Origin: Ceraceosorus guamensis
Taxonomy: Eukaryota; Basidiomycota; Exobasidiomycetes; Ceraceosorales; Ceraceosoraceae
NCBI RefSeq assembly: GCF_003144195.1
Contig: NW_020290017.1
Span: 198,038-262,037 of the forward strand
Direction of reading: 5' to 3'
Length of the DNA: 64,000 nucleotides
A program made the position numbers and the translations under genes. Shown here in pieces: positions 1 through 43,405 of the stretch (position 1 is its first letter; every line of letters begins with the position of its first letter). The notes under the pieces were generated by a model, which saw only the letters and a list, made by a program, of their open reading frames with translations, ran no database searches and was not told where the DNA came from.

Positions 1-1533
1 GTCCTTTTGCAGCGTAGCGTGGTCGACGACGCCACTGAGGGTGCGGTGCAGCTCGTTCCTCATCTGCGCGAGCTCCTCATCTCTCCTCTCGAGACAAGCT
101 CGAAGCCGGCGCTCTTTGCGGGTCGAGTTGTCAGGACGCTCCTCCGTCGAGCTCGCTGCATCCTGCTCTGGAGGGTCGTCCATATCCTCGTTGTCTGAAT
201 CATCTTCCTTCTTGACAACCAGAATGATGTGGAGCTGTGCCTTGCGCGCCTTGACAGCGTCTTCACGCTCCTTGAGCCCCTTCTCGCGCTGCACCAGTTC
301 GTGAGCGTGACGAAGCATGTCCAAGCACTGCTCCTCATCTGCGCGAGCTCCTCATCCCTCCTCTCGAGACAAGCTCAAAGCTGGCGCTCTTTGCGGGTCG
401 AGTTGTCAGGACGCTCCTCCGTCGCGCTCGCTGCATTCTCTTCTGGAGGGTCATCCTCGTCGTCTGATATTCCTTCTTGACGACCGGGACGATGTGGAGC
501 TGGGCTTCGCGCGCCTTGACAGCGTCTTCACGCTCCTTGAGCCCCTTCTCGCGCTGCACCAGTTCGTGAGCGTGACGAAGCATGTCCGAGCACTGCTGAC
601 CTCGTTGAACTGCTTCGGTTTCGCGCGCCTGCACCTGGGCAAGCGAGTTGTGGTACGTCTCCAAGTCGGCGCAGAGATCAATTTCGCGCCTTCGAAGCAC
701 ACCGAAAGCCTGCTGGTGGCTTTGCACCTCCCTGGCGAAGTCGCTCTCGCGTTTCTTCATCGTAGCTTGGAGATCAGCGGCAGATTTCTGGTGCAAAGCG
801 ATCTCGCATGCCAGACTATTCTCACGCTCTTGTACTGCCTGCAAGCGAGAGAACAGTTCTTCTGCGCGACTTTGCAGCTGACCATCCTGTTGCTCCACGA
901 TGCTTTGTCGAGCTTGGACGCCCTGCTGCTGTTGAACCAACTCGTGTCGCTGGCACTCGAGACTCTGATGCTGGCTGGCAAGCTCAGTGCGCGTTTGAGC
1001 AAGCACCTGTTGGTGCTCACGAAGATCGTCTCGTTCTTGACAAACAGTCTCTTCTTGCTGGCGAAAAGCCTCTTGTTGTCCCAAAAGAGCTTCGTGGTGC
1101 TGACGAAAAGCCGCTTGCTGAGCTTGCAGAGCTTCCCCCTGCTGACGAAGAGCCTCTTTCTGCTCATCCAGAGCGCGCTGCTGCTGAGCAAAGTCGTTTT
1201 GACGACATGTGCGGTCCCGCTCTTCCTGGGCCTGCTGCTCAATCAGATCGTCCTTGCGCTCTTTGCGCTTTCTGGACAGCTTGTTGTTGAGACGTTTGTC
1301 GAGCGTCTCTAGACCTCCATCGGACGCAAGTTGCTGGACGCGTGCATATGCCGCTCTAGCTGCTTTGTGCTGAGCCAGACTTTGCTTTGTGGGCTGCGTG
1401 GTTGTGGTACGGAGGTCTGAACCAGGTTCTTGCTCCTCTGGGTTAGTGGCGTGAATTGCTGATTTGCTAGTGGCATCGACCGCCTCACGGCGAGCGTCGC
1501 GCCTGATTGATTGGGTCTAGCGCCAGCTGGCAT
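1..1533 (-). CDS. Coiled-coil family gene A, 3' end outside the window
   Basis: No known function. The minus strand is open from about 1516 down to 335, and again, in the outer repeat copy, down to base 1. The N-terminal part is basic with a box reading AARAAYARVQQLASDGG. This box matches boxes in the genes at 26357, 35944 and 40424. A long Gln/Glu/Arg-rich coiled coil follows, with near-heptad repeats such as EALRQQGEALQAQQAAFRQ. The distal part reads RKERRLRACLERRDEEL, closely matching EEKRLRACLEEREEE near the C-terminus of the gene at 35944, so the two are paralogues. No ATG lies in the main frame: the nearest (1531-1533) is in another frame, so a small 5' intron, a frame change or a sequence error is needed. 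A 275-bp tandem duplication near the 3' end puts the inner copy out of frame. Real as a family member; exact ends uncertain. Confidence 0.6.
59..597. repeat. Tandem duplication, 275-bp unit, two copies
   Basis: Copy 1 (about 59-333) and copy 2 (about 334-597) are direct repeats, roughly 90% identical by eye, with a small length difference. Both cover the acidic and RLRACLE-containing tail of coiled-coil gene A. Only the outer copy keeps the family reading frame; the inner copy ends in a different frame shortly after VVKKE. Confidence 0.85.
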
Positions 1534-1679
1534 GGTGAATGTGACAGAGACTGCGCCAGGGGTGAAGTGACGGAGACGAAAGGGTTACGCCAGGGGTGAA
1601 GCAACGGAGGAGAGTTGGCTGCGCCAGATAAGGTTTTCAGAAGCTTTTGCGAGTCTGCACTTGAAGCCTTATTAGACAG

Positions 1680-2850
1680 TAGCTCAATCAGGGAGGGATG
1701 AGGATCTCTGTGGAGGGTGTGAAAGCGTGAATACTGGGTAGTGATGCATTTTCCTGGATTTGGCCGAAGTGTTGCAGCTTGGTCTGTCATTGCTGTGGTT
1801 GCGGTTGTTACATTTGGCTCTGTTCCCAGAGAACAAAGTTGGCAGGCTGATTGTGAGTTGAGTCTTGAGCTCCTGCCTCCTGAGCTTGAAGGAGACATTC
1901 AATTCCACCTCACAAGCCTCTTTGTACCTGTTGAATTGTTCTTGCCAATCTTTTTCCTCCCTCCAGCGCTCCTTACTGATTATCACCTTGGCTTTGTTGA
2001 ACAATCTTACTTGAAAGTCTTGCTTGCATTTCCATGCAACTGGCATACAGCTTTTGCCACATCTCTGCAAGTGGCTTGTCCTGTGCATTGGTGAGGCTCT
2101 GCGCTTCTACAGGAGCTACAAAGCTTGACGCCTTGTGCCTTGGATGATATATTTGATTGGGATGGAACGCTTCCCAAGGAAGCAACTGGGAACCTGGGAA
2201 GTGAAGTCCAAAGAAAGCCTCCGTTTAAGCCAACACAACTGGGATGGAAAGCCCCCTAAGGGTCTGCAAACCTTGACATGTTGTACCTTACATGAGTACT
2301 CTGGTTGGGATGCAAGGCCTCCAAAAGGGGCCATCGGGAGCTTGGGAAGTACAGTCCAAAGAGACCCTCTCACTGGGCAAGCACATTCTCCTGACATAAT
2401 CAGAAGTCTACAGCATTGCAACTTGTTCTACCATTGCTGTAGTTGTGCCATTCAGCTCTTTCCTCAAAGAGCACAGTTGGCATGGCTATCACAGAGCTGA
2501 GTCTCGCTCTCCTGCTACCAGGGCTGAAAGGACGCATGCAGCTCCATTTCTTGTGCTTCTTTCCATTTATCCTGCCACTCCTTTTCTGCCTCCATGCACT
2601 CCTTCCTGTTTGTCTCTTTGGGATTGTTCAGACAGTATTGGCTGAAAGTCTTGCTCATGCTTTTTGTGCAATTGGCAGAGGTCTTTTGCCACATCTCTGC
2701 AAGGTGCTTGTCCTGAGCAACAATCAGCCCCTAAGCTTCTGTAGGGTCTGCAATTTTCAGATGAGAAGTCTTATTGATATTCAGAGCCTCCTAACGGTGC
2801 AATTGAGCAGGTCAAGTGCCAATTGGCATTTCGATCACCACAAAGAAATA
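1680..2850 (-). pseudogene. Two decayed tandem copies of an unknown coiled-coil coding sequence
   Basis: Two segments (about 1840-2110 and 2490-2740) translate on the minus strand to related peptides: AQDKPLAEMWQKLYASC versus AQDKHLAEMWQKTSANC, then EKDWQEQFNRYKEACEVEL versus EKEWQDKWKEAQEMELHASF. Both copies are interrupted, so neither encodes a full protein now. Between them lies a further imperfect direct repeat (about 2157-2219 and 2307-2370). The stretch is visibly poorer in G+C than its neighbours. The peptide is Lys/Glu/Trp-rich and probably helical. I recognise no family; a link to the coiled-coil genes of this window is possible but not shown. Confidence 0.5.
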
Positions 2851-3562
2851 TGAGGTGGGCCAAATGTAAATGGAAGGCAAGTCTACACGCGGCGGTAACT
2901 CATGTGTGAACTTGACACGCAGTGAGCGGAATGTGAAGGCAGAATCGAGTGCGGAGTGTCGAGTGTGCATGAGTGATGGTCTTGTGTTGATTGGCCTCCA
3001 CCGCGCGTCCTAACTCAAAGTCAAGCCGCGCGGTTCACAGTGAATTTTGCTCATCGGGTACTCGTCTACCTGCATTTCTTCTCCTAGACGCGCTGGTGTG
3101 CATCATGATCGAGCGACCATACGAGCCTCGACTTCATCATCCGCTCATGATTCTCTATCCGCTGTTAGATATAGCAGAAGAGTTAATGGTTTGTGAGTAT
3201 CACAAGCGCTGCTTCAACGTGCGCGGCACGCGACACGCGTCGCGTGTTAATTGCGCTTGCTGGTGATGGTGCACCGCACCCTGCAACGCGGTCGGGGCGT
3301 GTGCAGCGAAAGAATTTGGAGGGCTATTTCAGCGATTGGGTGACTCCTCACATCCATCATCACCTCTGATTCCACTGCAGCCCCTTGAACGAGCTCCGGG
3401 GTGCAAGACCAGAGCTTAAGCTCAACGCCGGTCAGTCCAACTTTGCTGCTTCGCGCATTTGTTCTGTGCACATCTATCAGCCAGCTCTCGCCCAAACTCG
3501 GACTCTCGTTGAGAGTGGAGCCGCAACGTCTATCTCTTCATGCCATCGTGGCTAACGACCAC
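2851..3562. other. Intergenic, upstream of the UBR7-like gene
   Basis: No gene seen. It should hold the promoter and 5' UTR of the gene starting at 3563. One ACGCGT site lies at 3235-3240 inside a CG-rich palindromic stretch. No clear TATA box. Confidence 0.5.
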
Positions 3563-5725: not shown

Positions 5726-6089
5726 TTCCTTGCACTAACGGTCGCACTCCCTGCATGTCCAATGTGGGCCCAGAGCGTGCTTCGCTGGGCCTTCGCTTGC
5801 CCGGCTACTAGCGCTCTTCATTCAAGCTCATCACGGGTGTTTCCATCGACGCTCAATGTCATCAATCATAAGAATGCCATTGTGGATGCGCCTGGAAGGC
5901 GATGCATCGTCTATTGGGAGTCGTCAGATGTACGTGCGGGAAGACCGAGAAAGGTGCGCAGTGCAAGATGTACACAAGAGGCGGATGCGCTTTTGATGCG
6001 GTGCAACCGGTAGAGGAGCCGCAATCTATCAGATGACGAAAAGGCGCGATGGCTACGGGTGATATAGACGAGCCGGTGGATTCAGTGGT
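5726..6089. other. Convergent 3' intergenic spacer
   Basis: Separates the 3' ends of the UBR7-like (+) and New1-like (-) genes. It should contain both polyadenylation regions. No other feature seen. Confidence 0.6.
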
Positions 6090-16946: not shown

Positions 16947-18074
16947 CTATCTGCGTCGATGATGCTGCCCCCCGTGCCCATCGAAGCGTCTGACATCTTC
17001 GTCTCGCCGTCTGTCCCGATCTCGTGCGTCGCGGTCTCTTTGCACCGAATGTCGCTGCCGCTCCTCTTCAGCGCTCCCGCTTCTGCTCCTCATGCGTTCT
17101 CGCCGATTCTCCTCCTCGCGCCTGTCACGACTCTCGGAGGTTTGCTTGCCTGCTCTAGCGCTGTCGCTTCTCCCTTCCTTCCTCTCCTTCTTGAAGGCTC
17201 TCTCTTCTCGGATTCGCGCCCGCTCCGCTTTGCGTCGGAGCTTCTCCAGCCTCTCGAGATCATCCGTAGCTTGAGATCTCGACCCGCTTGCAGAGCCATT
17301 GCGTGTTAGGTATCCTGCCATCGGGTCCTCTAGGTCTGGATCGCCTTCTGAAGTGAACTTCGAAGCGGATGGCATAGCCGCAGAGGCTGATATGGGCGGG
17401 GCACAGTCTGCTATTCAGCCTCGCGGATGCAATCGATGAGAAGGCCGCACACTTCCCGGCGAGCCCTGCTACGAACGAGGCGCTGATAGTTCGTGCACAC
17501 CCTCACTCACTATTCAGAACGACTGGCGCAGCATTCCGACTTGGCTCAGTGCGCTCGATCTTATTCCCCTCATCATCCTTTTCGGTTGGCCCTTTGTAGT
17601 CCTTGACGTGATCCACTCGAATGATGCGATCCAGCACTTTGGCGCCATTGAGGTTGTCCACCGCCAGCACTGTACTCCTTTGGTCTTCGTACATCAAGAA
17701 GCCAAAGCCTCTCTTTGCTCCCGTCTCCTTCGCGCGTGGCAAGGATATGTCCAGGATCTCGCCGTACTGGGAGAAGATCGTGATGACATCCCCTTCGGTC
17801 AGGCCCAGCGGCAAACCTCCGACAAAGATGTATGCAGAGTCTGACAAAGAGAATCAGAGTCAGCAGTGGACGACCCTTCCCACCCAAAATTTGGAGATCA
17901 CGCACCTTTGAACTCATCGTGCCAGCTTGCCCCTTCAAGCGCCAGCTTCAGCTCCTGCTCATTGATTCTTTCTGTGCTTCGTATGTTGCTGTACAGATTG
18001 GAAGAAGTGCCGCTCATCGATCAGCGAAGAAGATGAGAGGCCTAGTTGTGACTGGCTGACACCACTCACTTCAT
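16947..18074 (-). CDS. IST3: RNA-binding splicing factor, Ist3/Cwf29/RBMX2 family
   Basis: RRM protein of the RES (retention and splicing) complex, which joins the activated spliceosome; partners include Bud13 and Pml1. Exons (minus) 18074-18070, 17988-17906, 17840-17511, 17347-16947; 272 aa. The first coding exon is only 5 nt (ATGAA); joining gives MNNIRSTERINEQEL, the family's usual N-terminus. The RRM (about residues 30-110) has RNP2 YIFVGGLP and RNP1 KRGFGFLMYE, then STVLAVDNLNG and IRVDHVKDYKG, both hallmarks of this family. The fourth exon supplies GDPDLEDPMAGYL and then an Arg/Asp/Glu-rich tail. A SNIP1/Pml1-like gene, encoding a possible second RES subunit, lies about 42 kb away at 59545. 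Confidence 0.92.
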
Positions 18075-18616: not shown

Positions 18617-20362
<1,746 letters not shown>

Positions 20363-21290: not shown

Positions 21291-21528
21291 TCCGGCAGGT
21301 GTCAAGCTCGGGCCCGGAGGCCTGGCTTTTGACGACCCATCGGGTTCGAGGTGGNNNNNNNNNNNNNNNNNNNNNNNNNNNNNNNNNNNNNNNNNNNNNN
21401 NNNNNNNNNNNNNNNNNNNNNNNNNNNNNNNNNNNNNNNNNNNNNNNNNNNNNNNNNNNNNNNNTCCGGCAGGTGTCAAGCTCGGGCCCGGAGGCCTGGC
21501 TTTTGACGACCCATCGGGTTCGAGGTGG
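21291..21528. other. Assembly gap with identical 64-bp flanks
   Basis: 110 N at 21355-21464. The 64 bp before the gap (21291-21354) are identical to the 64 bp after it (21465-21528). This is what two contig ends overlapping at the same locus would give, so the gap may be artificial and one copy spurious. A true tandem repeat spanning the gap is the alternative. Confidence 0.9.
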
Positions 21529-21620
21529 TCTCTGATCAAGGGTGGCATCTTCAGTTGCAGAGCCCGGACTCGAGTGTTGCCCGCAGGCATACTTCAAGAT
21601 CGATATGCAGTGAAGATTGT

Positions 21621-21710
21621 TGCCGTCGAGGGATTCGAACCCACGACGTTCTGGTTCTCAAACCAGATTTGAGTAAGCGCTCACGCGCTCGCCAACTTCG
21701 CCATCCCGGC
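21621..21710 (-). tRNA. tRNA-like unit a (isotype unresolved)
   Basis: About 90 nt. A-box-like TGGCGAAGTTGGCG; D arm with stem GCG/CGC and the GG of the D loop. Perfect B box GGTTCGAATCC. A 7-bp stem with loop TGAG just before the T arm could be a class-II (Leu/Ser) variable arm. Problems: only the outer four acceptor pairs form (GCCG/CGGC), and no canonical 5-bp/7-nt anticodon arm with T33 can be drawn. A hairpin AGCGC-N4-GCGCT sits at positions 22-35. It could be a tRNA gene with an odd intron, a class-II tRNA, or a tRNA-derived pseudogene. Confidence 0.45.
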
Positions 21711-26356: not shown

Positions 26357-27343
26357 TTACAGCTGCATGCTGTCGAGCACGGAGCCCACGCTCTCTGCGT
26401 TGTTGGAGCGAAGAATGCGAAGAAGTCTCGCTTCACGCGTCTGAGCCTCGCGCAGCTTTTGCTCGTGAATTCTTTGCTCATGAGCCTTCTCTCGCCTGTG
26501 ATCATTCTCGCGCTCCGTCAAAAAGCTCTCTTGTCGGGCGAGATCGCGACTCTGTTTCTGCTGTGCTCGTTGGACCTGACCTTGAATCGCCTCGCGTTGA
26601 GCAACCTCGTCCTCACGATGCTGAACCGAGGCTTCGCGGCGTTCGACTTCCTCACGATGAGTCGCCGAGCGGCGCTCGCTCTGGCGCACTGCAAACTCGC
26701 GCTGATCAACGTTGAGCTGGCGGTCTCGGATCGCCTGCTCCCTTTCCGTGACCACCCTATCTCGCTCCGCCAAATTTGCGTCGCGGGCTGAAGCGTGGAA
26801 GTTGAGATCATCTTCACGCCGGTCCAGTCCCGTCTGACGCTCACGCAGGCTGTCGTCCCGGCCACGACGCTGGTCTTCAAGGGTTGAGAGCCTTGCTTCA
26901 TATTCTTGTTCGCGCATCGTTAAGGCGTTCTCTCGGGTAGCAAGGGCTTCTCGCTGCTGGCGCTGAGATGCCTCGGTGTGTCTAACAGCCTCTTCGCCAA
27001 TCCTTAGGATGTTCTCTCGGGCAGCGAGGGCTTCTTGCTGCTGGCGCTGAGATGCCTCGGTGTGTCTAACAGCCTCTTCGCGAAGCCGCAGCTGCTCCTC
27101 TCTTTCCTGGCTTTCGTCGTGTCCACGGCGAGCTGCTGCCCTCTGGATGGCTGCGTAAGCCGCCGCGTAGGCCATTGCTAGGCCATTCCTCTGATTCGGA
27201 GTGATTTCAGAGCCGTGAGTCTCGATGACAGAAGTAATGTCCGCTTCGCTTCTGGCATCTAGTGTCGTGGCTGATGCTTCACGCTGCTTGCGCTTCGCGC
27301 GCCTGCTTTGGTGTCCGTCGCGTGTGGTAACCTGCGTGTCCAT
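26357..27343 (-). CDS. Coiled-coil family gene B
   Basis: Function unknown; single exon, 328 aa. Basic start (MDTQVTTRDGHQSRRAKRKQ), then the family box ITPNQRNGLAMAYAAAYAAIQ at about residues 45-68. The rest is almost uninterrupted charged coiled coil rich in Arg, Glu and Gln. Two copies of a 28-residue unit (EEAVRHTEASQRQQ...) follow each other at about residues 88-143, encoded by two nearly identical 84-bp DNA units (26927-27010, 27011-27094). No signal peptide, membrane segment or cysteine cluster. The C-terminus ESVGSVLDSMQL resembles PSAVAAAMSGMQV of the gene at 34825, suggesting a shared end motif. It could be structural or nuclear (basic N-terminus), but no role can be assigned. Confidence 0.75.
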   Translation of the reverse strand: MDTQVTTRDGHQSRRAKRKQREASATTLDARSEADITSVIETHGSEITPNQRNGLAMAYAAAYAAIQRAAARRGHDESQEREEQLRLREEAVRHTEASQRQQQEALAARENILRIGEEAVRHTEASQRQQREALATRENALTMREQEYEARLSTLEDQRRGRDDSLRERQTGLDRREDDLNFHASARDANLAERDRVVTEREQAIRDRQLNVDQREFAVRQSERRSATHREEVERREASVQHREDEVAQREAIQGQVQRAQQKQSRDLARQESFLTERENDHRREKAHEQRIHEQKLREAQTREARLLRILRSNNAESVGSVLDSMQL

Positions 27344-28465: not shown

Positions 28466-29593
28466 TCAAGACGTCTTCTTGCTGGCGTCTTTCAGCTGCT
28501 CGTCACGGATGCTTTCAAGGGCGCGGTCCACCTCGTCCAGATTGATCTTCGATGAGCTGGGCAGCTGCTCACCAGCACGGAGATCCCCTCTGAACGGTTC
28601 ATGAAAGAGCTTGCTTGTCTTGGCTTCCTTGGTGAGTTTCTCAATATTCTCCCAGAACCCTGGGGGAGTGGGAGGAAAGAAGGCTGGAGACTTGATCCCT
28701 CCGTCACTGCAGACCGATCCAAGCTCTGCTGCCTCCTGGGGCGGTGGCTCAGACACCTCCGACTGAGCATCGGCATTGTCTTCTCGATGGGCATTGTCTT
28801 CTCGATCCGCCGTTGCCGGCGCCATGTCGGTGTCAATGATGACGCGACTCGCTCCCTCCATGGACTGCTCGATCTGAGTTTTGATACCATCTAGCTCAGT
28901 TTGCGCCGATCGAAACTTCCTCACAAGGTCCCCCAGAGTCTGAAACAGCGACTCCTCCACCTCAGGCAAACGCCTCTGGAACTCTTGATCCAATGCTTGT
29001 TGCGCCTCTACTTTCAGGCGCTCTTGAATGCTTGCGCGACCCACCATGAGCTCGTGGTCCATGCGCCTCTCTGCTTCCCTTTGGGCTGTAGTGATTCGTA
29101 GGGCCTGTGCAGCTGATGATGATTCAAGTTGCTTGTCCAAACGCGCTTTGTTCTGTGCGCGACCCATCTGGAATTCTTCCTCAAGCTTGCGGTTCTGCTC
29201 TGCGCGAACGGTCTCCATTTCCCTCTCAAGCTTGCGCTCCTTCTCTGCGCGAACGGTCTCCATTTCCCTCTCAAGCTTGCGCTCCTCCTCTGCGCGAGCG
29301 GTCTCCATTTCCCCTTCAAGCTTGTGCTTCAGCTCTGCGCGAACGGTCTCAGATTCTCCTTTAAGCTTGAGGTTCAGCTCTGCGCGAACGGTCTCAGATT
29401 CTCCTTTAAGCTTGAGGTTCAGCTCTGCGCGACCGACTTCCAGCTCGTGGTCGAGTGTTTGCTTAGCATCTGCGCAGGCTTTTGCTTGAGCCAGCCCCAG
29501 CAGGTTTTGGTAGGCCTTGTGGGCGCCTCTGTGGTGTTGCTTTGTCGAGCTGCCGTCATTGGCGCTTTCCAGTTTGTGATGCTTGCGTGCCAT
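28466..29593 (-). CDS. Coiled-coil family gene C (15-residue repeats)
   Basis: Function unknown; single exon, 375 aa from the ATG at 29593 (MARKHHKLES), chosen because genes D and F also begin MAR plus basic residues. The frame is open a further 138 nt upstream, into an 88-bp DNA repeat. A family-like box GAHKAYQNLLGLAQAKA lies at about residues 20-36. A coiled coil follows, with about six 15-residue repeats of the type RAELNLKLKGESETV / RAEKERKLEREMETV, nearly identical at DNA level (about 29155-29430). The C-terminal third is acidic and Pro-rich, with FFPPTPPGFWENIEKL, and unlike the other members. No membrane segment or signal peptide. Confidence 0.75.
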   Translation of the reverse strand: MARKHHKLESANDGSSTKQHHRGAHKAYQNLLGLAQAKACADAKQTLDHELEVGRAELNLKLKGESETVRAELNLKLKGESETVRAELKHKLEGEMETARAEEERKLEREMETVRAEKERKLEREMETVRAEQNRKLEEEFQMGRAQNKARLDKQLESSSAAQALRITTAQREAERRMDHELMVGRASIQERLKVEAQQALDQEFQRRLPEVEESLFQTLGDLVRKFRSAQTELDGIKTQIEQSMEGASRVIIDTDMAPATADREDNAHREDNADAQSEVSEPPPQEAAELGSVCSDGGIKSPAFFPPTPPGFWENIEKLTKEAKTSKLFHEPFRGDLRAGEQLPSSSKINLDEVDRALESIRDEQLKDASKKTS

Positions 29594-29621
29594 CTTTGAG
29601 TGCGCGACTGGATCGAGCCGC

Positions 29622-29797
29622 TGAAGTAGGAGCCGTCGGGCACGGAGCTGCTGACAGACTACTCGTTGAACGCGAGTCGAAGCGGCGTGATGTGATCTGT
29701 AGCTCTCGTTGAAGTAGGAGCCGTCGGGCACGGAGCTGCTGACAGACTACTCGTTGAACGCGAGTCGAAGGCGTGTGATGTGATCTGTAGATCTCGA
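29622..29797. repeat. Tandem 88-bp direct repeat upstream of gene C
   Basis: Two adjacent copies (29622-29709 and 29710-29797) starting TGAAGTAGGAGCCGTCGGG, nearly identical. They lie immediately 5' of the chosen start of coiled-coil gene C, so they may be promoter or 5' UTR. Confidence 0.85.
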
Positions 29798-31180
29798 GGG
29801 AAGCTGAAGATGTGTTGAACAAGCGAGAGCGAGCTGAGGATGTGTTGCAGAGGAACGAGCGAGCTGATGATGGTGTCGACAGTCGCGGATGATGGTGTCC
29901 CAAGGCGCGGGTGAGGGCTAGCGGAGATGCGCTACCAGGCCTTGCACGCGGCGCACGCCTTTCCACACCCATCCAGAGCGTTGGTCATGCGATGCGAGGG
30001 CCCAGTAGAGCAGCAGCAGTCAGCATCGTGATTGGTTCTGAGTGCTGAGTGCTGAGTTGCGATCGTGAGAAGCGCCCGTTAGCGTCGAGTCCGTTGAGAG
30101 TTGCATGGTCATGCACGATGCCCCGCCGCTGGTGGTGGCACGCCAGCGCGGCAGTAGTTGGAGACAGCGCGCGAAATAGAGGCGTGTGTGAGTCTTCTCA
30201 GTGGAGCTGGCAATGCACAAGAGTTCGTGATTGGAATGAGCGTCGAGTCAGCACGCTTCTCATTACATCTTGGGTCATTTGGCTCGGAGTCGGGAATGTG
30301 CAGGATTGTAAAAGTCTCGAATCAAGAATCTTGTGTGGCTGCCGTAGGCTTCTTCACGCGAGAAAGCTCATCATGCGATCGAAAGTCGTGATCACATGCT
30401 TTTGCACTTTCGACGAAATAAAAACGTGATTTTGCGATCCAATCGTCAATTTTGAATTTTCATTCAACGTCTCGATCAAATCAAGAACATCAGCATTCAA
30501 GTCATGAATTATGAATCAATCATTAATTTACAACCAATTGACTTACGATCTACAATTTGAACTCACATTGTAGTCTTTACCCAGCGCCGGTCTTTTCATA
30601 CTCTTGACTCACGACTTCAGACGAGGCACGGCTAGACGCTTCAGAAGACATACAAGATATAGGTGATTGAATTCAGAATCGTGACTCACAAATCCAAATT
30701 GCCATTAAGGCGCGAGGCGCTTCACGTGACCCGAAAGCGCAGCGCCCGCGCCGCGTCATATTCACGTTGTGCCTCGCCTGCGCCTGACCACCGGCGGTCC
30801 TCCTCGTCATCAACGAATCGTGAGGGTGAATATGAACGGATCACTGACCATCATCCCTCCGATGTCAAAGCCCCGAGGTCACTTCATTCGTCCATTTGAC
30901 AACTCGACACAAGTGAAATGCCGGCATCATCGAGCCAATTGAGCCGGGGAGACAGCGAAGCAGCAAACGAGCTAGACTCTACGCGTCTCGTCGGAGATGT
31001 ACACGACTCCGAGCACCTGCAATGATTGTCGGAGTTGGAATCATCTCTGGATGCGCATCCAAGTGGGAACTACGCCTGCAATGCCTCCAACATCTCCTTG
31101 CATCCAACACGCTCACGCGGACGCTAAAATCGCCAGAAAATAGGTGCATATATACCCATGTATGCCCTCTTTGCATCACT
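29798..31180. other. Intergenic, AT-rich in part
   Basis: No gene recognised. 30420-30620 is AT-rich with many AATCA/GACTC-type words (for example TTGACTCACGACTTCAG near 30603). Contains the rest of the gene C upstream region. Confidence 0.45.
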
Positions 31181-31984: not shown

Positions 31985-32330
31985 TATGTCAGTCGAGTGC
32001 AGCAGCTGGGAATATGATGGATTGCTATGATGATCGTAGTGAAGAAGGAAGAGAAGGCGCTAGTCAAGCGTTGTATGAAGCTAAGATAAAGCGCATGTCG
32101 CGTGCCAGCAGCGACAATGCTACTCGATGCTAGACCACTCTCAATCTCCTTCTCGACGGCGATATAGCGCTCGTGTAAGGTGTCCCGTATTGAGCGCACA
32201 GTCCCCTTCTCTGCATGAGGTACCCAAACGGTCTGAGTAAGCGCATCGGCCCCCATTGTATGCATGTATATAAGTCTCTCCCAGTTCCTTCAGTCGGATC
32301 CCCGCTCGATGCGAATTTGATCCCTTCTCA
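31985..32330 (-). pseudogene. Decayed relative of the adjacent unknown gene (32370-33773)
   Basis: On the minus strand the segment ATCAAATTCGC ... GACTTATATACATGCATA (about 32230-32310) aligns with 33415-33485 inside the next gene. The peptides that follow keep a similar spacing: GTVRSIRDTLHERY versus GTVYLIQDIASEIS. No complete frame is seen, so it reads as a truncated duplicate. Confidence 0.45.
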
Positions 32331-32369
32331 CAACACCCCGAACCCCTTCGTCAGCCTTGAATGAGCCAA

Positions 32370-33773
32370 TCACTCTTCTTGAGAATCGTGCCTCTTCCAC
32401 TGCTTCTGCTCCTGACCCAGTGATACTGTCGCGTGACCAATGTTCGAACTGACAACAGGACCAGAATCGGTGAAAGCAACGTCGTCATTCGGACTGGAGC
32501 CAGGAGCAGGAACGGTGGTAGCGACGATCTCCCTCGGACTAAAGACGGAAGCAGAAGAGGTGGAAGTGACGCCAGCTCGTGTCGTCACTTCCACCTCTTC
32601 TGCTGCCGTCTTGGTCTGCGGTGCGTTCGTGCTGTGATCCGAAGAAGCCGGTGCGAGTCCCAGGCGCAGAGAGAGCATGTAATTCGTCGAGGACAGAGGA
32701 AGACCTGTGCTTTGCACGGTTCGAGTGTGCTTGTTAGGCGCACTATTCCCTGAAGGACCGGCAACTTGATGAGCATCAGGTTGATCCGACGCTTTGCGTT
32801 TCACGCCAGTCGGTGCGAGAAAGCTGCCCGACTCGCTCAACTGCGAGGAAAGGGGAGAGGGGCCGACGAGTATGGCGCTGCCGGTAGAGGACTGAGAGCC
32901 ACCCGATCGACCTAGACTTTGACTCAAGCTCCTGCTGACCGCTGGCGTAGACCCGCGCCGGACGAGATGCCACAAATAGGGGTTGAGCCTAGTGACAGGC
33001 CCGTGCAAGGCCGCCTGCTGGAGATGAGGGTGGTCGTACTCCCGTTTCTCAAGATCGGTGTTTCTGGTCCACTTGTAGCTCCAGGGCTTCCATCGGGGCA
33101 CAAGGTTCTCCAGCCACGTCTTAGGCTTTTGGGTTTCGAATTTTCTGCTTGCCTCGCGTAACTCGTTCTTGGCTACCAAAAGCTGTAGTTGTAGATGCTG
33201 GATTTTGACCAGACGATCATAGGCGATTCTGCTTTCGGATGCGCAGCGCAATGAACCGACACCGACAGTGACTTTGCTTCGGGCGAGGTCCAGCGCCGGT
33301 TTCCAAAGCGTGGCTCGAGTTGTTGTCTTATTCCTGAGGCGGGAGATCTCGCTGGCTATGTCTTGTATCAAGTACACGGTCCCTTTTAGGCAGCTGAGCG
33401 GTCCGAGGAGCGCACAGGCCTCTATTCTATGCATGTATATAAGTCGCTTCCTTGAGTCGAGCTCCGAATTGAAGCGAATTTGATGGGATCTTCCAACATG
33501 TTGTTCGTCGTTCATGAGAGGGCCAAGAACGCCCATTCGCGTTGTCACGTCCTCAGAGATTGCCAACTTCGCCTGAAACACCACCAGCGCGAATGCAGGT
33601 TCGGCGTCGGAAGGCTCACAATCGTTCAAATTGGCGTCATCGATGAAATGCTGCTTGGCAGCCTGGTCGAAGCGCTCCCAAAGTAGTGAGGCTAGCTCAG
33701 CTTGGCAATATAACTCTAGTGACGTTCGAAACCATACGTCTGCCGCAGCAGCAATGGGTTTGGATAGTCGCAT
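32370..33773 (-). CDS. Hypothetical protein of unknown family
   Basis: Single exon, 467 aa from the first ATG (33773). I recognise no domain. The N-terminal half (about 1-260) looks folded and helical: AAAADVWFRTSLELYCQAELASLL, a Leu-rich stretch and a short coiled coil (RIAYDRLVKIQHLQLQLL). The middle has WLENLVPRWKPWSYKW. The C-terminal half is Ser/Thr/Pro-rich and disordered, with a possible nuclear signal VKRKASDQPD. It is not clearly a member of the neighbouring coiled-coil family. A 53-bp inverted repeat sits in the disordered part (32551-32603). The frame is open to 33878 but without an earlier ATG. Confidence 0.55.
   Translation of the reverse strand: MRLSKPIAAAADVWFRTSLELYCQAELASLLWERFDQAAKQHFIDDANLNDCEPSDAEPAFALVVFQAKLAISEDVTTRMGVLGPLMNDEQHVGRSHQIRFNSELDSRKRLIYMHRIEACALLGPLSCLKGTVYLIQDIASEISRLRNKTTTRATLWKPALDLARSKVTVGVGSLRCASESRIAYDRLVKIQHLQLQLLVAKNELREASRKFETQKPKTWLENLVPRWKPWSYKWTRNTDLEKREYDHPHLQQAALHGPVTRLNPYLWHLVRRGSTPAVSRSLSQSLGRSGGSQSSTGSAILVGPSPLSSQLSESGSFLAPTGVKRKASDQPDAHQVAGPSGNSAPNKHTRTVQSTGLPLSSTNYMLSLRLGLAPASSDHSTNAPQTKTAAEEVEVTTRAGVTSTSSASVFSPREIVATTVPAPGSSPNDDVAFTDSGPVVSSNIGHATVSLGQEQKQWKRHDSQEE
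32551..32603. repeat. Perfect inverted repeat, 21-bp arms, 11-nt loop
   Basis: Arms 32551-32571 and 32583-32603 are exact reverse complements (left arm starts GCAGAAGAGGTGGAAG). It lies inside the coding frame of the unknown gene and encodes AAEEVEVTTRAGVTSTSSA-like peptide. It could form a cruciform or a strong RNA hairpin. Confidence 0.9.
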
Positions 33774-34824: not shown

Positions 34825-35259
34825 ATGGCGCGCAACAAACGCCGCAACCGTCCGGCCAACGAGCACGATCTCGCAGAAATACAACGCGAGTTCGATCGCG
34901 CTGCTCCCAGTGAGATGGAGATTGATGAGGAGTTCAAAGCTGTCCGCGAGGCTATGCCGGAGCCTTTGACGGACCAACAAGAACGCATGGCGGAGAAAAA
35001 TTTTCGCAAAGCTATCTCTGGCCTTCAAAAGGCTGGTGCTTCTTTCGTCCAGCAGAGGAGAATGGTGAAGATCTTCGAGCGCGAGAAGAAGGTGCAGAAG
35101 CAGGAGGAAGCCGTAGCCAAGAGGGAGGAAGAGGTCAAGGCCAGGGAGGAGAAGGCAGATGCCCGGGATGCGGCCTTCACCAAATCCCGCCTCCAAGCCA
35201 TTGCTGGCGCAGATACGCCTTCGGCTGTTGCCGCCGCCATGAGCGGCATGCAAGTCTGA
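34825..35259 (+). CDS. Coiled-coil family gene D (short member)
   Basis: Function unknown; single exon, 144 aa, the shortest member. Basic start MARNKRRNRPANEHD, family box LTDQQERMAEKNFRKAISGLQ at about residues 48-68, then one coiled coil (FEREKKVQKQEEAVAKREEE). It ends PSAVAAAMSGMQV, similar to the end of gene B. With the box near the middle and both ends matching longer relatives, it looks like a minimal form of the family lacking the expanded repeat tract. The ATG is the first in frame; the preceding bases ACA at -3 are acceptable for a fungal start. Confidence 0.7.
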   Translation: MARNKRRNRPANEHDLAEIQREFDRAAPSEMEIDEEFKAVREAMPEPLTDQQERMAEKNFRKAISGLQKAGASFVQQRRMVKIFEREKKVQKQEEAVAKREEEVKAREEKADARDAAFTKSRLQAIAGADTPSAVAAAMSGMQV

Positions 35260-35943
35260 ACGGTAAGTCGAGAGCAGGCACTACCTTACCTGACAACGAG
35301 GAAGATAAAATTGGCCTCAGGTCATCAGGTTTCTCGAAAGTCGTGTTCACAAGGTCATCAGTTCACAAGGTCACTCCGTCCGCACAGTCAGTCATCCCCT
35401 CTTCCTCCATTCGCACCTCTCGACACCCAACTCGAGGATCTGGCTAGTTCTCTACTCGCTGACTGTAGAACATGTATCCCAGCATTGTTGTCGAATCTAT
35501 CAAGTACTCAACGTCGCGCATTTGGTCACGGTCCACTCTCGAGGTCAGGCTGTGACCGTCTGAGTCACACTGCCCACCGCCCGAGAACCGTGTCTTCTTT
35601 ACGCTTTCTCTGCAGCGAAGGTTGCGATACTCGGTGATTTTTGGCATGGTCACTCACATTGAGTATTGACCTCGCATGAAAGCTCCAGGTTCATTCTTCC
35701 CGTGAGCACTGCGCGCGGATAAGATACATGTATTTTGCAACGGTCAAGAGAAAAAGTCACAAGGATGCTGCTCGGGAACGCTTCAATTAGAAGAAGGCAA
35801 ACACTTCTGGCTCCTATGGACTGACTACGTCAACACCGATGGTCTTGAACAACGTCGAATGGCCGACGCGCTTACCTCGGACCTTTTGGCCGAGATCAGA
35901 GAGTTTCGCGTGGTCGCCCCGATTTGTCTCACGACGCTCGGAC
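35260..35943. other. Convergent spacer between coiled-coil genes D and E
   Basis: No gene recognised; imperfect short repeats of GTCATCAG/TTCACAAGGTCA near 35320-35390. Confidence 0.45.
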
Positions 35944-37368
35944 CTAATCTTCGGGAATGGCCTCCTGAGAAGCAGAAGAATCGTTTTCGGCCTCGCTGCC
36001 CGAGTTCTGAAGGCCGAAACCTCCCGCCAGTGCTTCTGTGAGCTCATCCACTCTGTTGATGCAGCACTGGGCGTGCATCGCTTGCAGGTCCAAATTCTCC
36101 TTCCTAGCGAAGTCAAGCCACTCGCGGTCACTCCGAGCTTTATGACCCAATCGGCAGTAGTGGTCTTGAAGCTCCGCGAGCGCTCGAGAGACCGGGGAGC
36201 GATTGTGCCAGAGTTGTGTGCGCAAAGCGTCGCACTCTTCCTCCCTCTCCTCCAGACAAGCCCGGAGGCGCTTCTCCTCCGAGCCTGGGCTGCTCGACTG
36301 CGGTTGCTCGGATTCTTGCCTCACATGTACCCCCGTCATGTCGTCCACTTCGACTTTGACGCGTGGATCGGGGCCGTCGGTCTGTGGTGCTGTATGAGGC
36401 TCCACGATTTCGAAGTCCAGATCTTCTTCAACTTTGACGCGAGGAACGTCGGCCTCCACGCGAGGGGCACGACGCACCTCCACAATCTCAAAGTCAGGCA
36501 CCATATCAGCTTCGATGATGTCCGTTCTTGACTCCGCAGTGGGCGGGGAGCGGTGCTGGGCAGCCTGTCGCTCGCGTTCGGCAAGCTGGCGCTCACGCTC
36601 GTCAAGCTCATGGTCCCGCTGACGTACGAGAGGCTCAGCGCCGAGAACGCGATTGTACTCCGCCTCTCGACCTTCGAGAGCCATTTGTCGTGAGCGGAGG
36701 CTCGTCTCCCATTCCCTCGCTTGCTGGTCCAGAGCTTGCCGAAAGTTGTTGGCGAGCTGCTGCTGCAAGCTGGTGGCGGCGTTGAGTTCCTGATCGCGCG
36801 TCGCAAGGCTTTGCTCGCAGTGGGCTTGATGCTCAGCGCAGGCGGCCTGCTGCTGAGCAAGCCTTTGCTCTGCGTCACAGAGTTGTTGGCGCTGCTGATC
36901 AAGGTAGCCCTGCTTCGCATTCGCCTCCTTCACCTGCGTCTCTAGACTCTGGTGGAGAGCGCGCTTTTGAGTGTCTTCGTAGGCATTGAGCTCCTCTCGA
37001 AGCTTAGCCCACTCGTTCTTCTTGACTGCGGCAAGCTCCTCGTCCAACGCTTCACGTCGAGCCTGCGCCTCTTTCGCCAAGTCGCTCTCGAGCTCGGCCC
37101 ATGCTTTGACTCTCTCGCTGCCCGTCTCTTCTTCGAGCTTTCGCTGGTTTGCCTGGCGGCGAGATGCGAGACCATGCTGAGAAGCGATCTTCTGAATGCG
37201 CGTGTATGCTGCTTCAGCGGCTTTGCGGTCGCTTGCGTTTTGCTTTGAGCGCTGCTTCGAAGTGACCGAGCTACTGGACCCCGCAACTTGGTCCGTCTCC
37301 TCTGCCTCGGGGCTTGTCTCGCCTAGCGCCGCTCGCTGATGCTTCTTGGCTCTCCATTCCTTGCGCAT
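35944..37368 (-). CDS. Coiled-coil family gene E, with repeated VKVE motifs
   Basis: Function unknown; single exon, 474 aa. Basic start MRKEWRAKKHQRAALG; family box DRKAAEAAYTRIQKIASQHG at about residues 48-67. A long coiled coil rich in Glu/Arg/Gln/Ala follows (to about 290). Next comes an acidic linker with a twice-repeated module: DFEIVE followed by PRVKVE (about 300-360). VKVE fits the SUMO-attachment consensus and the hydrophobic DFEIVE resembles a SUMO-interacting stretch; both are inferences. The C-terminal domain EEKRLRACLEEREEE matches the distal part of gene A. Ends with an acidic Ser-rich tail. No membrane segment. Confidence 0.75.
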   Translation of the reverse strand: MRKEWRAKKHQRAALGETSPEAEETDQVAGSSSSVTSKQRSKQNASDRKAAEAAYTRIQKIASQHGLASRRQANQRKLEEETGSERVKAWAELESDLAKEAQARREALDEELAAVKKNEWAKLREELNAYEDTQKRALHQSLETQVKEANAKQGYLDQQRQQLCDAEQRLAQQQAACAEHQAHCEQSLATRDQELNAATSLQQQLANNFRQALDQQAREWETSLRSRQMALEGREAEYNRVLGAEPLVRQRDHELDERERQLAERERQAAQHRSPPTAESRTDIIEADMVPDFEIVEVRRAPRVEADVPRVKVEEDLDFEIVEPHTAPQTDGPDPRVKVEVDDMTGVHVRQESEQPQSSSPGSEEKRLRACLEEREEECDALRTQLWHNRSPVSRALAELQDHYCRLGHKARSDREWLDFARKENLDLQAMHAQCCINRVDELTEALAGGFGLQNSGSEAENDSSASQEAIPED

Positions 37369-40300
37369 CCTTACGATAAGTACGGTGAGACGATACGTAG
37401 GAAGAGAAAGTCAGAAGCTGGCGTGGAGACAAGACAATCGAGTGTCAGCAAGCGCATCGTCTTTTCCGCAAGAAGCCGATGTCAGCTACTCACATAGAGG
37501 AAGCTGGTTTCCGACCTTCGATCAGAATGGGTCGACCGCGAATGTGGTTCAGCAGTGATGCGTACTGAGCACCGAGCCTGACCGAGATTGAATGGCGAAG
37601 GACACTGAGGATGAGCAGAGACTGGTGCCTAGCGGGGACTGGTGGCGAGTGGGGACTGATGGCGAGCGGGGACTAATGGAGAGCGGACAGCGAGGACGAA
37701 TGGAGACTGATGCTGGACGGGGACTGATGCTGGACGGAAACTGATGCTGGTCGGGGACTGATGCTGATCGGGAACTGACACTCGTCGGAGAGTGAGGCTG
37801 ATGGGAGACTGATGATGATCGACAATGATGGTGACGCAAGAGTTCTAATGAAAGCGCGACGGTGGTGAACCCGGGATGATAGTGAACGGACACAGAGTAC
37901 CGACACTCTTCTGTACAAGTGGTTGCGCTTCTCGGTGCTTATGGTCTACAGCGAAGAAAAGGTTAGGCAGCAAAGGTTTGAGGCTTCGCGTAAGCTTTGA
38001 CTTCGTCAATATGACGCTCAGGGCTTTTTGACTCTGTGCTTTGGAGTCGAGGTGAGGACAGAAATGAGAAAGATGCAGAATCATAAGAGTTGTGGATAGG
38101 CCTCAAGTATCGAAGCTCAAAACAGTCATGAATCTGCAGCCGTAAGTGACAGATTTGAAGGCATGGCGGACCCTCAGTCACGAGTGCGACTAGACGTGAC
38201 ACGATCGAGCCAAACACTCACGCTTCGATCGGGAGTGCTGGGTGTCGAGCATGGCGTGAACCCCTCGCATGGAGGGCAGCCGCTCGGTGCCGCTGCCGCG
38301 GCTAGCTCGCGCGCCGCGCACCCTGCCTGCACCGCCTCGTGTGCACTTGGCGGTTTGGCCGCCCGCTCGGTAGAGAAGCGCTCAGCGCTCGTGCCTTCAC
38401 TCACGGCTGCTGGCAGCAGCCTGACATGCCATGACCGCTAGGTCTGAGGAGCTTCATGCTCGGATAGCTTGATAGGCAGCCAGAAGAAGACCAGGACAAT
38501 CTTTGCCAAGCCAGCACATCCAAGAGGACGCTGATGTTGCTTGGCCTTGAAATGCGCCCTGAACGCATATAAGCGATGTGAATGAATGTCCGCCTCGCTG
38601 GAGCAAGACGCTACAGTTTAGCCCGAAGCGCTCTTCTTAGTGCGTGAGCCAGAGGACAATTTATCGTAATTCCTTTCAAGTAAAGCATCATTTCTAGACG
38701 TCACGTTTGATTGGTGGCTGTTGCTTTATTTTGAAGAGACGATTTCAGGACCTCGGTGTCCTCTGTTCACGTGATCGGTGCTTGCTGTGAGAGCAGATAA
38801 GATTCGTGCCGACTGGGGGTCCACGTAAAGGGTTTGGCAGGAGTATATATATATATACACGTATGAGAACGGGTCCGTTCCTCGCTTAGACTGCTCAGCT
38901 GTCTCGAGCACCAGCGCACGGGGCGCTCATGCATCCTTATTTGAAGACAAACCTTTGCATGCTCTGCCGAGTCGTTGAAAGATGGGCCGCGCTTATATGC
39001 CGAGAGTGGCCGAATCAAAATGACACACACACCCCGCGCTGGAACCTCGACGTTAATTTGCTTTTCATTCCCTTTCCAATTTGAGCCGCTTAGCCCCGCA
39101 AGTCTCGTCATCGTCATGTGTTTAGAACGCCGCATCGGAAAAGCAGGCGGTACATATACTGGTTTCACTTGTCCGTGCCTGAATCTACCTGTAAGTTGAC
39201 TGAACCGCGCCAAGGCGTCTCTACCCGCAGACGGCGCTGAAGGAAGCCCCCCGAGGGCGCGAGGAGTGTGCAAGTCGACGGATTACCGAGACTCAGACCT
39301 CGACAATTGCTCAGTTCCGTTACTGCTCACAAACGAGAGGCGTGCATTCAAGATTTCGGCAACCTAATCCAAATGCGGACAAAGTGAGCGGCGGTCCCGC
39401 CTTCCAGCCGCAAATTCAACGCCAGATCTTGTCTCTCAAGATTGACGAACGTTGCGCGCGCGGATTCTTGCAGCTTCTATTGCGCGCACCACTTTGAGAC
39501 ATATCTCGCCGCAAAATCTGCCCTCGTGAGCCTGCACTCGTAGCCGAGCATTCTCCTCCGCATCCCATATTACACGTTCGAGCACAAGCAACAACGGCAT
39601 CTTGCCGCGAATGTCGAGTATATGGCTGTTCTGCGCCCGCTTCGAGCACTCCTACCTCTCCATGATGCATCTTCTGCCCGCAATGGTCCCGCATCATTCT
39701 GGTTCACACGCAGACAGCGTTCAAGTAAGCAGATCGCCACAAAAGCTGCGCAGAGCAAACACAAGTTTTGATGGAGAGATCGCGCGCGCAAAGGCGCGCG
39801 GCATAGGGCGGTAGTAGCCCTACCGCACACCCGACTCGATGGTTCACGAAGGAGACGTATCCATATTTGGATGGTGGGCGCGCTTTTCGCGCGTGTGCTC
39901 GTACATGAACTTGTAAGTATCGAATGAGTCACTCTGCGGTGAGAGCGAGTTTGTGGAGTCAGAGACAAAGGTCGGGTCGCAAGTAACGACCGCGCGCGCC
40001 GGGAAGGAGGGGGGAAAGTAGGGCAATAGGGTCCGCGTCACATTGGCGAGGAGTGACAGAGACGGAGCGGTCCTCAGAAGATATTCTACGAAAGTGTGTG
40101 GATGGCGACTGCGGACGATGGGTCGGTAGTAAACTTGGTACGGAAGACGTTCGGGTGGCTGAGACTTGACGGATCCTGACGCGCACGTCACGGACGAAGC
40201 ACCACGGGTGCGGACGGACCGAGACCGTGATTGCTCAGAACAGCGGCGCTTGGGAGTACGACTCGGAAGCAGTGCAGACCTAGTTGAAAGGTGGATGCTG

Positions 40301-40423
40301 ACATGATGCCAGATCTTGAGGCGAAGCGCCTTGTAGATCTAGATCGCGAAGGCGATTATTTCTCAGCGACGAAGGTCGTGCACTTGCTATGAGCATTGCA
40401 CATGGACGGAGCACTCACTCAGC
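37369..40423. other. Gene-poor spacer between coiled-coil genes E and F
   Basis: About 3 kb without a recognisable gene. Contains the minisatellite at 37620-37830, a TATATATATATACA run near 38846-38859, and GC-rich stretches (38270-38370). Open frames of up to about 170 codons have no domain. Confidence 0.45.
37620..37830. repeat. Minisatellite, about 17-bp unit
   Basis: Imperfect tandem units of the type GGGGACTGATGCTGGAC repeat roughly 11-12 times, more diverged toward both ends. It lies upstream of coiled-coil gene E (minus strand), about 250 bp from its start. Confidence 0.8.
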
Positions 40424-41743
40424 TTATGGCGAGGATGGGGCCTCAGCTGGAGGCTGTGGAGTCCCGACTTCGGTGTCGGCGGAGACTTGGCGCCCGTGAG
40501 CAGATGCTGGAGCGTTGTGCGCCACGACCAACGCAGTGCCGATGTCCTCGAGGTCGAAAGTTGGCGTCTCGGGAGCGTGAGGAATTTGGCGGAATTGCGG
40601 GGTCGGCGAGTACCGTGGACTCCCCATCTCACTGGGGTCCTCCATGAGGAGCCGGCCGCCATACGCCGCTTGCGGCTGATCAACCGTGGTACCCGGCGCC
40701 GCATCCACCGTGCTCCTCTGAAACCTCGCTCGCCACTCAGGGTTCACCCACTCTTCTGCATCCGCTTCTGTCTCCACCTCCATCTCTTGACCAGCCTCTT
40801 GCGCTCCCGCCGGTTGTGCACGGCCATTCATGAGCCACCAAGCAGGGAGAATGGGCACTGTGTCCTGCGCTCGCTGTTCTGAAAGCTCCTCCTCCGCTTC
40901 CTCCATGCGAAGCTCCAGCTGGCGAGCAAGCTCGTCATCGACCCTCTCGCACTCTTGGGTCCAACGCTGGGCCAGAGCTGTTTCGACCTCCTCCTTCCTT
41001 TGCTGACTGTAGGCGTTGAGCTGCTGGTCCAGCTCATGTCTGTGCTGGGCGAATTCGCGATTGATGCGACTGTTCTCGCGCGCGCGGGTCTCTGCTACCT
41101 CGCCAGCCAAAGTCGCTTCGGCCTGCTGACGTCGCTCCGCAACGTCTTGATCGATCCGCTGACGGATGTCAGCAGCCTCTTCCTGAATCCGCTGCCGAGA
41201 TCCAGCAGCCTCTTCCTGAATCCGCTGCCGAGATCCAGCAGCCTCTTCCTGAATCCGCTGACGGAGGTCAGCAGCCTCTTCCTGAATCCGCTGACGGAGG
41301 TCAGCAGCCTCTTCCTCCATCCGCTGACGGAGGTCACGAGCCTCTTTCTCCATCCGCTGACGGAGGTCAGCGGCCTCTTCCTCAATCCGCTGACGTAGGT
41401 CAGAAGCCTCTTGATCCATCCGCTGACGGAGTCCAGCAGCCTCCTCGGCGATCTGCTGACGACCATCAGCAGCTTCACGTTCCAGGATGGCCTGGATTTC
41501 CTCGCGACCAGCTTGGAGAAGGCGCTCCAATTGAGCAGTGGCGCGCTCCTTCGCATTTTGATCCGCGAGCTTCTGTGCGTCGGCCAAGCGGTTCTGATAA
41601 GCTACCTGAATTCCAGCCCTTTGTTGGGGGGTCAGGCGCGGTTCGGTGGAGGCGATGGTGTCACTGGTGACTCGGTTGTCTCCAGACTCGCGCTCGCCCT
41701 CGTCGATGGGTGCTTGAGACTTTCTGTGACGTGAACGCGCCAT
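40424..41743 (-). CDS. Coiled-coil family gene F (11-residue repeats)
   Basis: Function unknown; single exon, 439 aa from the ATG at 41743 (MARSRHRKSQAPID), matching the MAR-basic starts of genes C and D. The frame is open 87 nt further upstream. Family box LTPQQRAGIQVAYQNRLADA at about residues 38-57. About ten 11-residue repeats of the type LRQRIEEEAAD / SRQRIQEEAAG follow (encoded about 41150-41450 by near-identical 33-bp units). An 11-residue period is typical of hendecad (right-handed) coiled coils. Then comes an acidic C-terminal third with AEEWVNPEWRARFQRS and Pro/Ser-rich sequence. No signal peptide or membrane segment. Confidence 0.75.
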   Translation of the reverse strand: MARSRHRKSQAPIDEGERESGDNRVTSDTIASTEPRLTPQQRAGIQVAYQNRLADAQKLADQNAKERATAQLERLLQAGREEIQAILEREAADGRQQIAEEAAGLRQRMDQEASDLRQRIEEEAADLRQRMEKEARDLRQRMEEEAADLRQRIQEEAADLRQRIQEEAAGSRQRIQEEAAGSRQRIQEEAADIRQRIDQDVAERRQQAEATLAGEVAETRARENSRINREFAQHRHELDQQLNAYSQQRKEEVETALAQRWTQECERVDDELARQLELRMEEAEEELSEQRAQDTVPILPAWWLMNGRAQPAGAQEAGQEMEVETEADAEEWVNPEWRARFQRSTVDAAPGTTVDQPQAAYGGRLLMEDPSEMGSPRYSPTPQFRQIPHAPETPTFDLEDIGTALVVAHNAPASAHGRQVSADTEVGTPQPPAEAPSSP

Positions 41744-43405
41744 CGTTGCGGATCTGTGTGTAAGAAAGGCGGCAGAATCTTCATCAGCTCCGGTGCCTTG
41801 CGTTCGCTCTACCCGACATCTAACATTCAACCACCAGCTTTGAGCACATCACTCACCTGTCGCGGAGGGTGCTTGTATCTGTTGGCAGAGTGATCTTGCT
41901 CTATGTCCAGAAGCCTGGTACGTCGTTGGCGTATATACGGGCCGCGCTCGACCTAGTAGGCCTACAGTCGATGTGACCGAGTCGAAAGATGCTTGGTTTA
42001 GGAATGTGAGCGGTGATGATCGGCCGGACAAATGCTTTCGGAGAGAAGCAGGTGAAGCTGGCTCGTAGCTGGTAAGAGTGCTTGGCAATGTCCCGCAAGG
42101 GTGTTCAAAGACTCATACGGACAGAGCAACGACGTAGTGGTGTGAGTTTCCGAAGGTCGAGACATAGCGAGATGTTGTAGAATGTCATACATGGCGATTC
42201 ACGATTGCTGGGCCTACTACTGGGCCATGACCTTGAAGGCACGCCGCTGTGCGGTGTGGTGCTGAGCGGCACGACCCCTTGCATGGCGAGCATCTGTCGC
42301 CAGTAAAAGTGGTAGCAGCGTAGGTGCATGCACGCAAGCGCGATCGATGAGCCACGGCGAACGTTGATCGCGGCGCGTGGCCCTTCCGCTATCCTCGCAT
42401 CCCGCAAACGAGCTGTGCGTTGCATTTGAGCTTTGTTGCTGGTGTGGAAGCAGCGTACATATTTTAGACGAGCCTTGAATGTGTCGTGGTCTTGCTCTCA
42501 GCATCAACGAGGGACAGCGTGCAGTCCCCGGCGAGCTAGTGACTATTGGGTCAAGCTCCTAGCGGCACTCTTGACTCGTGACTTGCGGAATCGTCCATCG
42601 TGGGTGTGCTATCCCCGCGCAGGAGTGACTCTTCCCAATCACGTGAATGTGTGAGCAACGAGAAAGCTTGGTAGGAGAAGAAGAAGGCGCTGGCGCGCAT
42701 GCGTCATCGCGGCGTGGCGCCGGCACCGTCGCGTGGATCACGTGGGTGTCGCTCGGCACGAGCCATCCCTCACTTCGCGAAGTCGAGTGAGTCGTGCGCG
42801 CAGCCTAGCTGAAGCCAGCAGAGTGGGTCTTGAGTCACGAGTCTTGGGTCATGGAAGTTTGAGTGGTGAGTGGGGATCGTATCGCGTTGCAGCTTGAGAT
42901 GATGTTCTCGTGCGAGTCAGCAAGCCACGCATCGCCATGGGGCGCGCAGTGTGCCCGAAGGCGAGAGTCACGAGTGGCACGGGAAGCAAGTAAGTTGCCC
43001 ATTTCGCAGTGAGCTCAACTTCTTCATGATGCTGTCCATCGTACCTTCCGCTTCGGCTTACGGAACACCTACTGTCCTGTGATGATAGCATTCATCTTCT
43101 CCTTTGCCTCGGTCTTCTCTTGACTTCAACTCCGGCATGTCAGCAGTCTTGCGCCTTCGTGTGACACGCTCAGCACGTGCAGTAGCTCAAGCTTCCTCGA
43201 CGCTCTCAGCTTCAACCCTCGCTCGAGTTTCTTGCCGCCAGAACGATATTGACGTCTCTTGAAGCCGAGGGGGAGTCGATCTTGACTTAGAACCGCGGAC
43301 CTTGCGGGATCTGCGTAGGCATCGAGAGGCAAGTGCTTCCATCCGGAGTCCGGAAAAAAACGCGTATTGTACTTGAAAAGCGGCACGCGTCCTACCACGC
43401 ATACC
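41744..43405. other. Intergenic, no gene recognised
   Basis: Upstream region of coiled-coil gene F and further spacer. GACTC-type words recur at 42568-42582 and 42825-42855. Open frames are short. Confidence 0.45.

Follow-up and report, generated by a model that had tools for sequence, protein, structure and literature searches.

Several described systems resemble, in one respect or another, a group of genes in the fungus Ceraceosorus guamensis. These genes lie in a 64,000-nucleotide stretch of contig NW_020290017.1 (positions 198,038 to 262,037), termed the window, and six of them, genes A to F, had been proposed in an earlier note to form a family of coiled-coil proteins with a shared N-terminal segment, termed the box. 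The Apolipoprotein A1/A4/E family (Pfam PF01442) is approached by gene F, whose helical repeats, of 11 residues each, score against it; however, only F does so, below the curated cut-off, with the box and tails outside the match and no leader apparent by eye. Hendecad coiled coils commonly have 11-residue units as well. Fungal orphan families of tandem-duplicated helical or coiled-coil genes, to our knowledge a kind rather than any one named family, have clustered divergent paralogues, repeat turnover and a decaying copy in common with this locus. Finally, Rsp3 of Ustilago maydis is reported to be a secreted repetitive effector with length polymorphism (PMC5923269). Compared by description only, it is likewise a repetitive fungal protein of variable length, but it is secreted, whereas the window proteins have no leader by eye.

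Judged from sequence, genes A, B, C, E and F are very likely related, while membership of gene D is marginal. They represent, in all likelihood, a real family of divergent paralogues encoding long helical proteins that probably form coiled coils, with one broken-looking copy, and are otherwise ordinary in kind. The explanation that we favour, tentatively, is a fast-diverging local family (A, B, C, E, F and perhaps D) subject to duplication and decay, whose products would serve as intracellular helical-rod scaffolds or tethers, a role suggested by their anatomy. The frames and their parts are as follows.

Gene A, long frame: 335..1516, minus strand; box plus helical/coil region, of pseudogenic look.
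Gene A, C-terminal block (RLRACLE): 1..333, minus strand; in another frame, in the second duplication copy, running off the window.
Tandem duplication in gene A: 57..597, minus strand; the frame of gene A is lost across it.
Gene B: 26357..27343, minus strand; 328 residues, with basic tail, box, 84-base-pair (bp; 28-residue) repeat and DSMQL end.
Gene C: 28466..29593, minus strand; 375 residues from the ATG at 29593, with MAR start, box, 45-bp (15-residue) repeats and proline-rich/acidic tail.
Gene D: 34825..35259, plus strand; 144 residues, a marginal member with MAR start and an SGMQV end resembling that of B.
Gene E: 35944..37368, minus strand; 474 residues, with box, predicted helix 43-269, low-confidence acidic stretch 270-360 and helical C-terminal region 361-450.
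Gene F: 40424..41743, minus strand; 439 residues from the ATG at 41743, with MAR start, box, 33-bp (11-residue) repeats and proline-rich/acidic tail.

The ATGs given for C and F replace the starts originally proposed for them. A MAR-type start, attributed to the family in the earlier note, is found in C, D and F only, as B begins MDT and E begins MRK. Genes B to F are indeed uninterrupted frames, but this may not set them apart from every conserved gene of the window; a 774-codon frame at 46899-49220, with a weak Whi5 match under the Pfam cut-off, is uninterrupted too.

Relatedness was assessed through the box, which was scored with a leave-one-out two-block profile against 400 plain and 400 heptad-preserving shuffles. 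The real score was matched by 1, 0, 2, 0 and 0 plain shuffles for A, B, C, E and F, respectively, and by 1, 0, 1, 0 and 0 heptad-preserving shuffles, compared to 18 of each kind for D. The register is exact in C and F; in B and E the second block is shifted by one residue, in A the first block lies four residues on, and in D the best profile match lies elsewhere than at the proposed box. When the nearest relative was also removed, the score of E was reached by none of 400 shuffles and that of A by one. A leave-one-out hidden Markov model (HMM), which is stricter, gave 18.7 bits for A (reached by 0 and 0 of 500 in two shuffle sets), 14.1 for B (0 and 0) and 10.2 for E (0 and 1), with a weak 4.2 bits for C (5 and 4). 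Among 1348 six-frame open reading frames (ORFs), A, B and E were each the best ORF outside the training set; C was not, and F and D were absent from the best 12.

Pairwise comparison of the N-termini gave four significant pairs of 15, namely A-E (Z 11.4), C-F (7.6) and B-E (6.0), each reached by 0/1000 shuffles, and B-F (4.0, 1/1000), which chain A, E, B, F and C together. The best of the remaining 11 was E-F (36/1000), and the others were at 72/1000 or worse. Where a pair has the same degenerate residue, the two genes use different codons in 14/25 cases for A-E, 16/27 for B-E, 14/19 for B-F and 14/20 for C-F, so that the likeness is one at the protein level; this would speak against a recent DNA copy as its cause. 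The C-terminal block common to A and E was borne out as well (Z 6.3, 0/1000 shuffles), with differing codons at 11 of its 20 identical degenerate residues. The proposed likeness of the B and D ends also holds (Z 4.4, 0/1000; repeat run 4/2000), by shuffles that destroy any coil pattern. This C-terminal resemblance is what the marginal membership of D would rest on, as its box score is matched by 18/400 shuffles and is off register and its HMM score is -1.7 bits. The proposed six-gene family is supported for A, B, C, E and F, with D doubtful. In the comparison with shuffled coiled-coil-like proteins that the earlier note had set as a test, the same five stand out with the profile, although the HMM fails F and is weak for C.

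A search for further members in all six frames of the window found none that was convincing. The ORFs at 61086-61340 and 55071-55286 reached at most 7.2 bits, and the ORF at 16992-17249 matched the C-terminal block of A with an E-value of 0.008; all three are read as composition. The block had also been called repeat-rich, which is correct mainly for repeats within or just beside the ORFs, but a self-BLAST of the window found no nucleotide repeat common to family genes. Comparison of the flanks yielded no more than a pair of short matches that overlap each other and lie upstream of B and C, one of 59 bp (71% identity) and one of 41 bp (78%). Tandem arrays with periods of 88, 30, 22 and 17/51 lie at 29622-29914, just upstream of C, and at 37620-37821, just upstream of E.

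The proteins share an architecture in which a basic tail is followed by a box of about 35 residues heading a long predicted helix, then by tandem repeats and tails. Inspection by eye alone suggests basic, polar N-termini with no hydrophobic leader. The repeat unit differs from gene to gene, with 11 residues in F, 15 in C and 28 in B. Acidic or proline-rich tails occur in C, E and F, and an extra helical C-terminal region in E and, in part, in A. Hydrophobic periodicity clearly exceeds shuffles in F and C only; it is strongest at 3.695 in F, a height reached by 0/500 shuffles, and at 3.755 in C (9/500). An AlphaFold2 model of E contains one helix spanning residues 43-269, with a predicted local confidence (pLDDT) above 90 for about residues 91-230; its C-terminal piece modelled alone gave a predicted template modelling score (pTM) of 0.34. 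Both models were built on very shallow alignments, of 6 and 2 sequences. A coiled coil is plausible, given the predicted helix in E and the periodicity in F, C and marginally A, but it is not borne out for B and D. Candidate motifs of the psiKxE and SUMO-interacting (SIM-like) types are present in A and E but carry no weight in the interpretation.

Several features are consistent with the frames being coding. All five ATG starts of B to F have adenine at position -3, compared to 147 of 664 intergenic ATGs. Of the tandem arrays found with TRF, one overlapping array being counted once (6 inside rather than 7), all six inside ORFs B to F have periods divisible by three, compared to 2 of 8 outside the ORFs classed as genes (Fisher P 0.0097). 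In codon usage the six sense frames score 0.030-0.060, at least as high as any of 54 intergenic frames, which reach 0.030 at most. Within 200 bp upstream there are three GTRAGT splice-like sites in the sense direction (D, E and F) and none antisense, where the intergenic rate predicts about 0.9; these are suggestive of introns in the 5′ untranslated regions of D, E and F, but not significantly so.

A number of results weigh against the scaffold-family explanation. Without the nearest relative, the box profile of C is matched by as many as 28/400 shuffles and that of F by 9/400, and the leave-one-out HMM fails F (0.7 bits; 82 and 88 of 500 shuffles) and D (-1.7 bits; 357 and 357 of 500). Hydrophobic periodicity is marginal in A, where the peak of 3.51 is reached by 26/500 shuffles, and is not above shuffles in B (389/500), D (309/500) or E (215/500), and the AlphaFold2 model of E has a pTM of 0.28. 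The frame-keeping of the arrays is at P 0.028 if a 3-bp array at 46290 is counted outside, and at P 0.060 if the 265-bp array of A is also counted inside. One antisense frame outscores the sense frame in codon usage in all six genes, so that this score does not decide. Between the repeat units of F, where third positions change more, the ratio of nonsynonymous to synonymous change (dN/dS) is about 0.7; for C it is 1.3 and for B 1.2, based on few sites. These values would point to mild constraint at most.

In the explanation that we favour, local paralogues would arise by duplication and then decay, a process termed birth-and-death evolution. Their products may be helical rods that stay inside the cell and associate in coiled coils, with the box starting or steering the pairing and the coil acting as a spacer that is free to drift in length. 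The basic tail and the variable ends would bind partners, thus making the rod a scaffold or tether.

Gene A looks like a decaying copy. It had been described as a single gene at 1-1533; however, its long frame has no methionine before residue 253, and the C-terminal block lies in a different frame. The block is put out of frame by the tandem duplication, whose copies of 266 and 276 bp are identical at 249 of 266 aligned bases and differ by a 4-base and a 6-base indel. The loss of frame could also stem from an error in sequencing or assembly. Upstream of gene A, a 0.3-kb stretch occurs in two copies, at 1772-2087 and 2416-2719, with 70% identity, and a minus-strand ORF at 1684-2106 is without a Pfam match.

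Comparison with domain libraries used the six genes as queries, with A as its long frame only and C minus its first residue. None matched above the cut-off in Pfam or NCBIfam, or at 0.01 in PHROGs, and a match of gene A to the NCBIfam TrlF model (20.3 bits against a cut-off of 350) was set aside. Neither the domain libraries nor a literature search covering titles and the starts of abstracts turned up a named family that has this box. PDB sequences were searched with E, its C-terminus, a profile of the six N-termini, and F. The profile gave 13 matches with E-values of 0.26-0.58 (one a lamin, the other twelve 14-3-3 proteins or fusions to them), which are read as chance, and a Foldseek search of PDB with the E C-terminal model gave nine, the best with an E-value of 5.8, which were discounted. 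In viral contigs, pattern matches numbered 0 for E, 2 for B, 3 for F and 2 for a neighbouring frame termed gene H, none of them confirmed; 86 pattern matches in prokaryote genome contigs to a query from the A/E alignment were likewise unconfirmed, and tblastn with E found no relative in phages. Absence from these genome collections says little about the spread of the family because none of them is fungal.

Of the other explanations, one holds that these are fast-evolving recognition or selfish genes (in self/non-self discrimination, drive or host interaction) with coil lengths and ends diversifying under selection. Clustered but strongly diverged paralogues, a broken-looking copy and repeat turnover would all fit, but relaxed constraint gives the same pattern and no known domain was found, all matches at E-values up to 1 being below the cut-off. 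We consider this unlikely, and the analysis gave no positive evidence for the self/non-self or nuclear role suggested in the earlier note. A specific form, in which a clade-specific recognition or drive set uses the box to set pairing while the register (F 11, C 15, B 28) and ends change until sister proteins no longer cross-pair, appears quite unlikely.

The uninterrupted frames, in a block of about 20.4-46 kb without a recognised conserved gene, could also be remnants of mobile elements or domesticated ORFs with a gag- or ORF1-like coiled coil. This seems rather improbable, as a Pfam scan of 10 further ORFs, nine of them in the block, detected no domain, and the members are without shared nucleotide repeats, the two short matches upstream of B and C being all that their flanks hold. 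There is a similarly slim chance that F, at least, resembles apolipoproteins in forming amphipathic helices that bind lipids or membranes. Gene F scores 53.1 bits against PF01442 (E-value 4.4e-14) and matches six PDB apolipoprotein sequences (best 3.3e-11), the sole PDB matches passing 0.001. However, the Pfam score is below the curated cut-off of 90 bits and the match is centred on the repeat region, whose 11-residue unit would suit a hendecad coil too, and the other five genes have no match to PF01442 at E-values up to 1. That there is no family at all, only unrelated low-complexity helical ORFs alike in composition, would explain the 11 of 15 N-terminal pairs that are non-significant or at best at 36/1000 and the HMM failures of D and F, but it is very improbable given that A-E, B-E and C-F are reached by 0/1000 composition-matched shuffles with the box aligned and that the boxes of A, B, C, E and F are matched by 0-2/400 plain and 0-1/400 heptad-preserving shuffles.

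At present, this is an undescribed orphan family. If the genes are expressed and have orthologues, they would provide a compact case of paralogues keeping a head segment while the rod changes its repeat register, and would allow the speed at which coiled-coil pairing specificity changes after duplication to be tested.

Elsewhere in the window, Pfam recognises elongation factor 3 (EF3), a protein indicative of fungi, by its HEAT, ABC and chromo domains. It also identifies a dehydrogenase of the NDH2 type that carries an EF hand, as well as frames for chorismate-binding and glutamine amidotransferase proteins. Rfam and ARAGORN found nothing in the window; a stretch at 21620-21710 (minus strand) resembles the T-arm of a transfer RNA by eye, although ARAGORN reported no transfer RNA. 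Close by, a 110-base N run at 21355-21464 is bounded by identical 64-bp copies (21291-21354 and 21465-21528) and is probably an assembly artefact. AP-1-like sites are nothing notable (18 found versus 13 expected), and a TCACGA-type element, picked post hoc, was found 25 times versus 7.5 expected. Gene H, at 32370-33773 on the minus strand, is a separate frame without a Pfam match. Its coding segment 33399-33484, with an IYMH motif, recurs beyond its stop at 32229-32321 with 75.5% identity over 94 columns, by which gene H is, as far as its sequence indicates, a second locally duplicated gene of the block.

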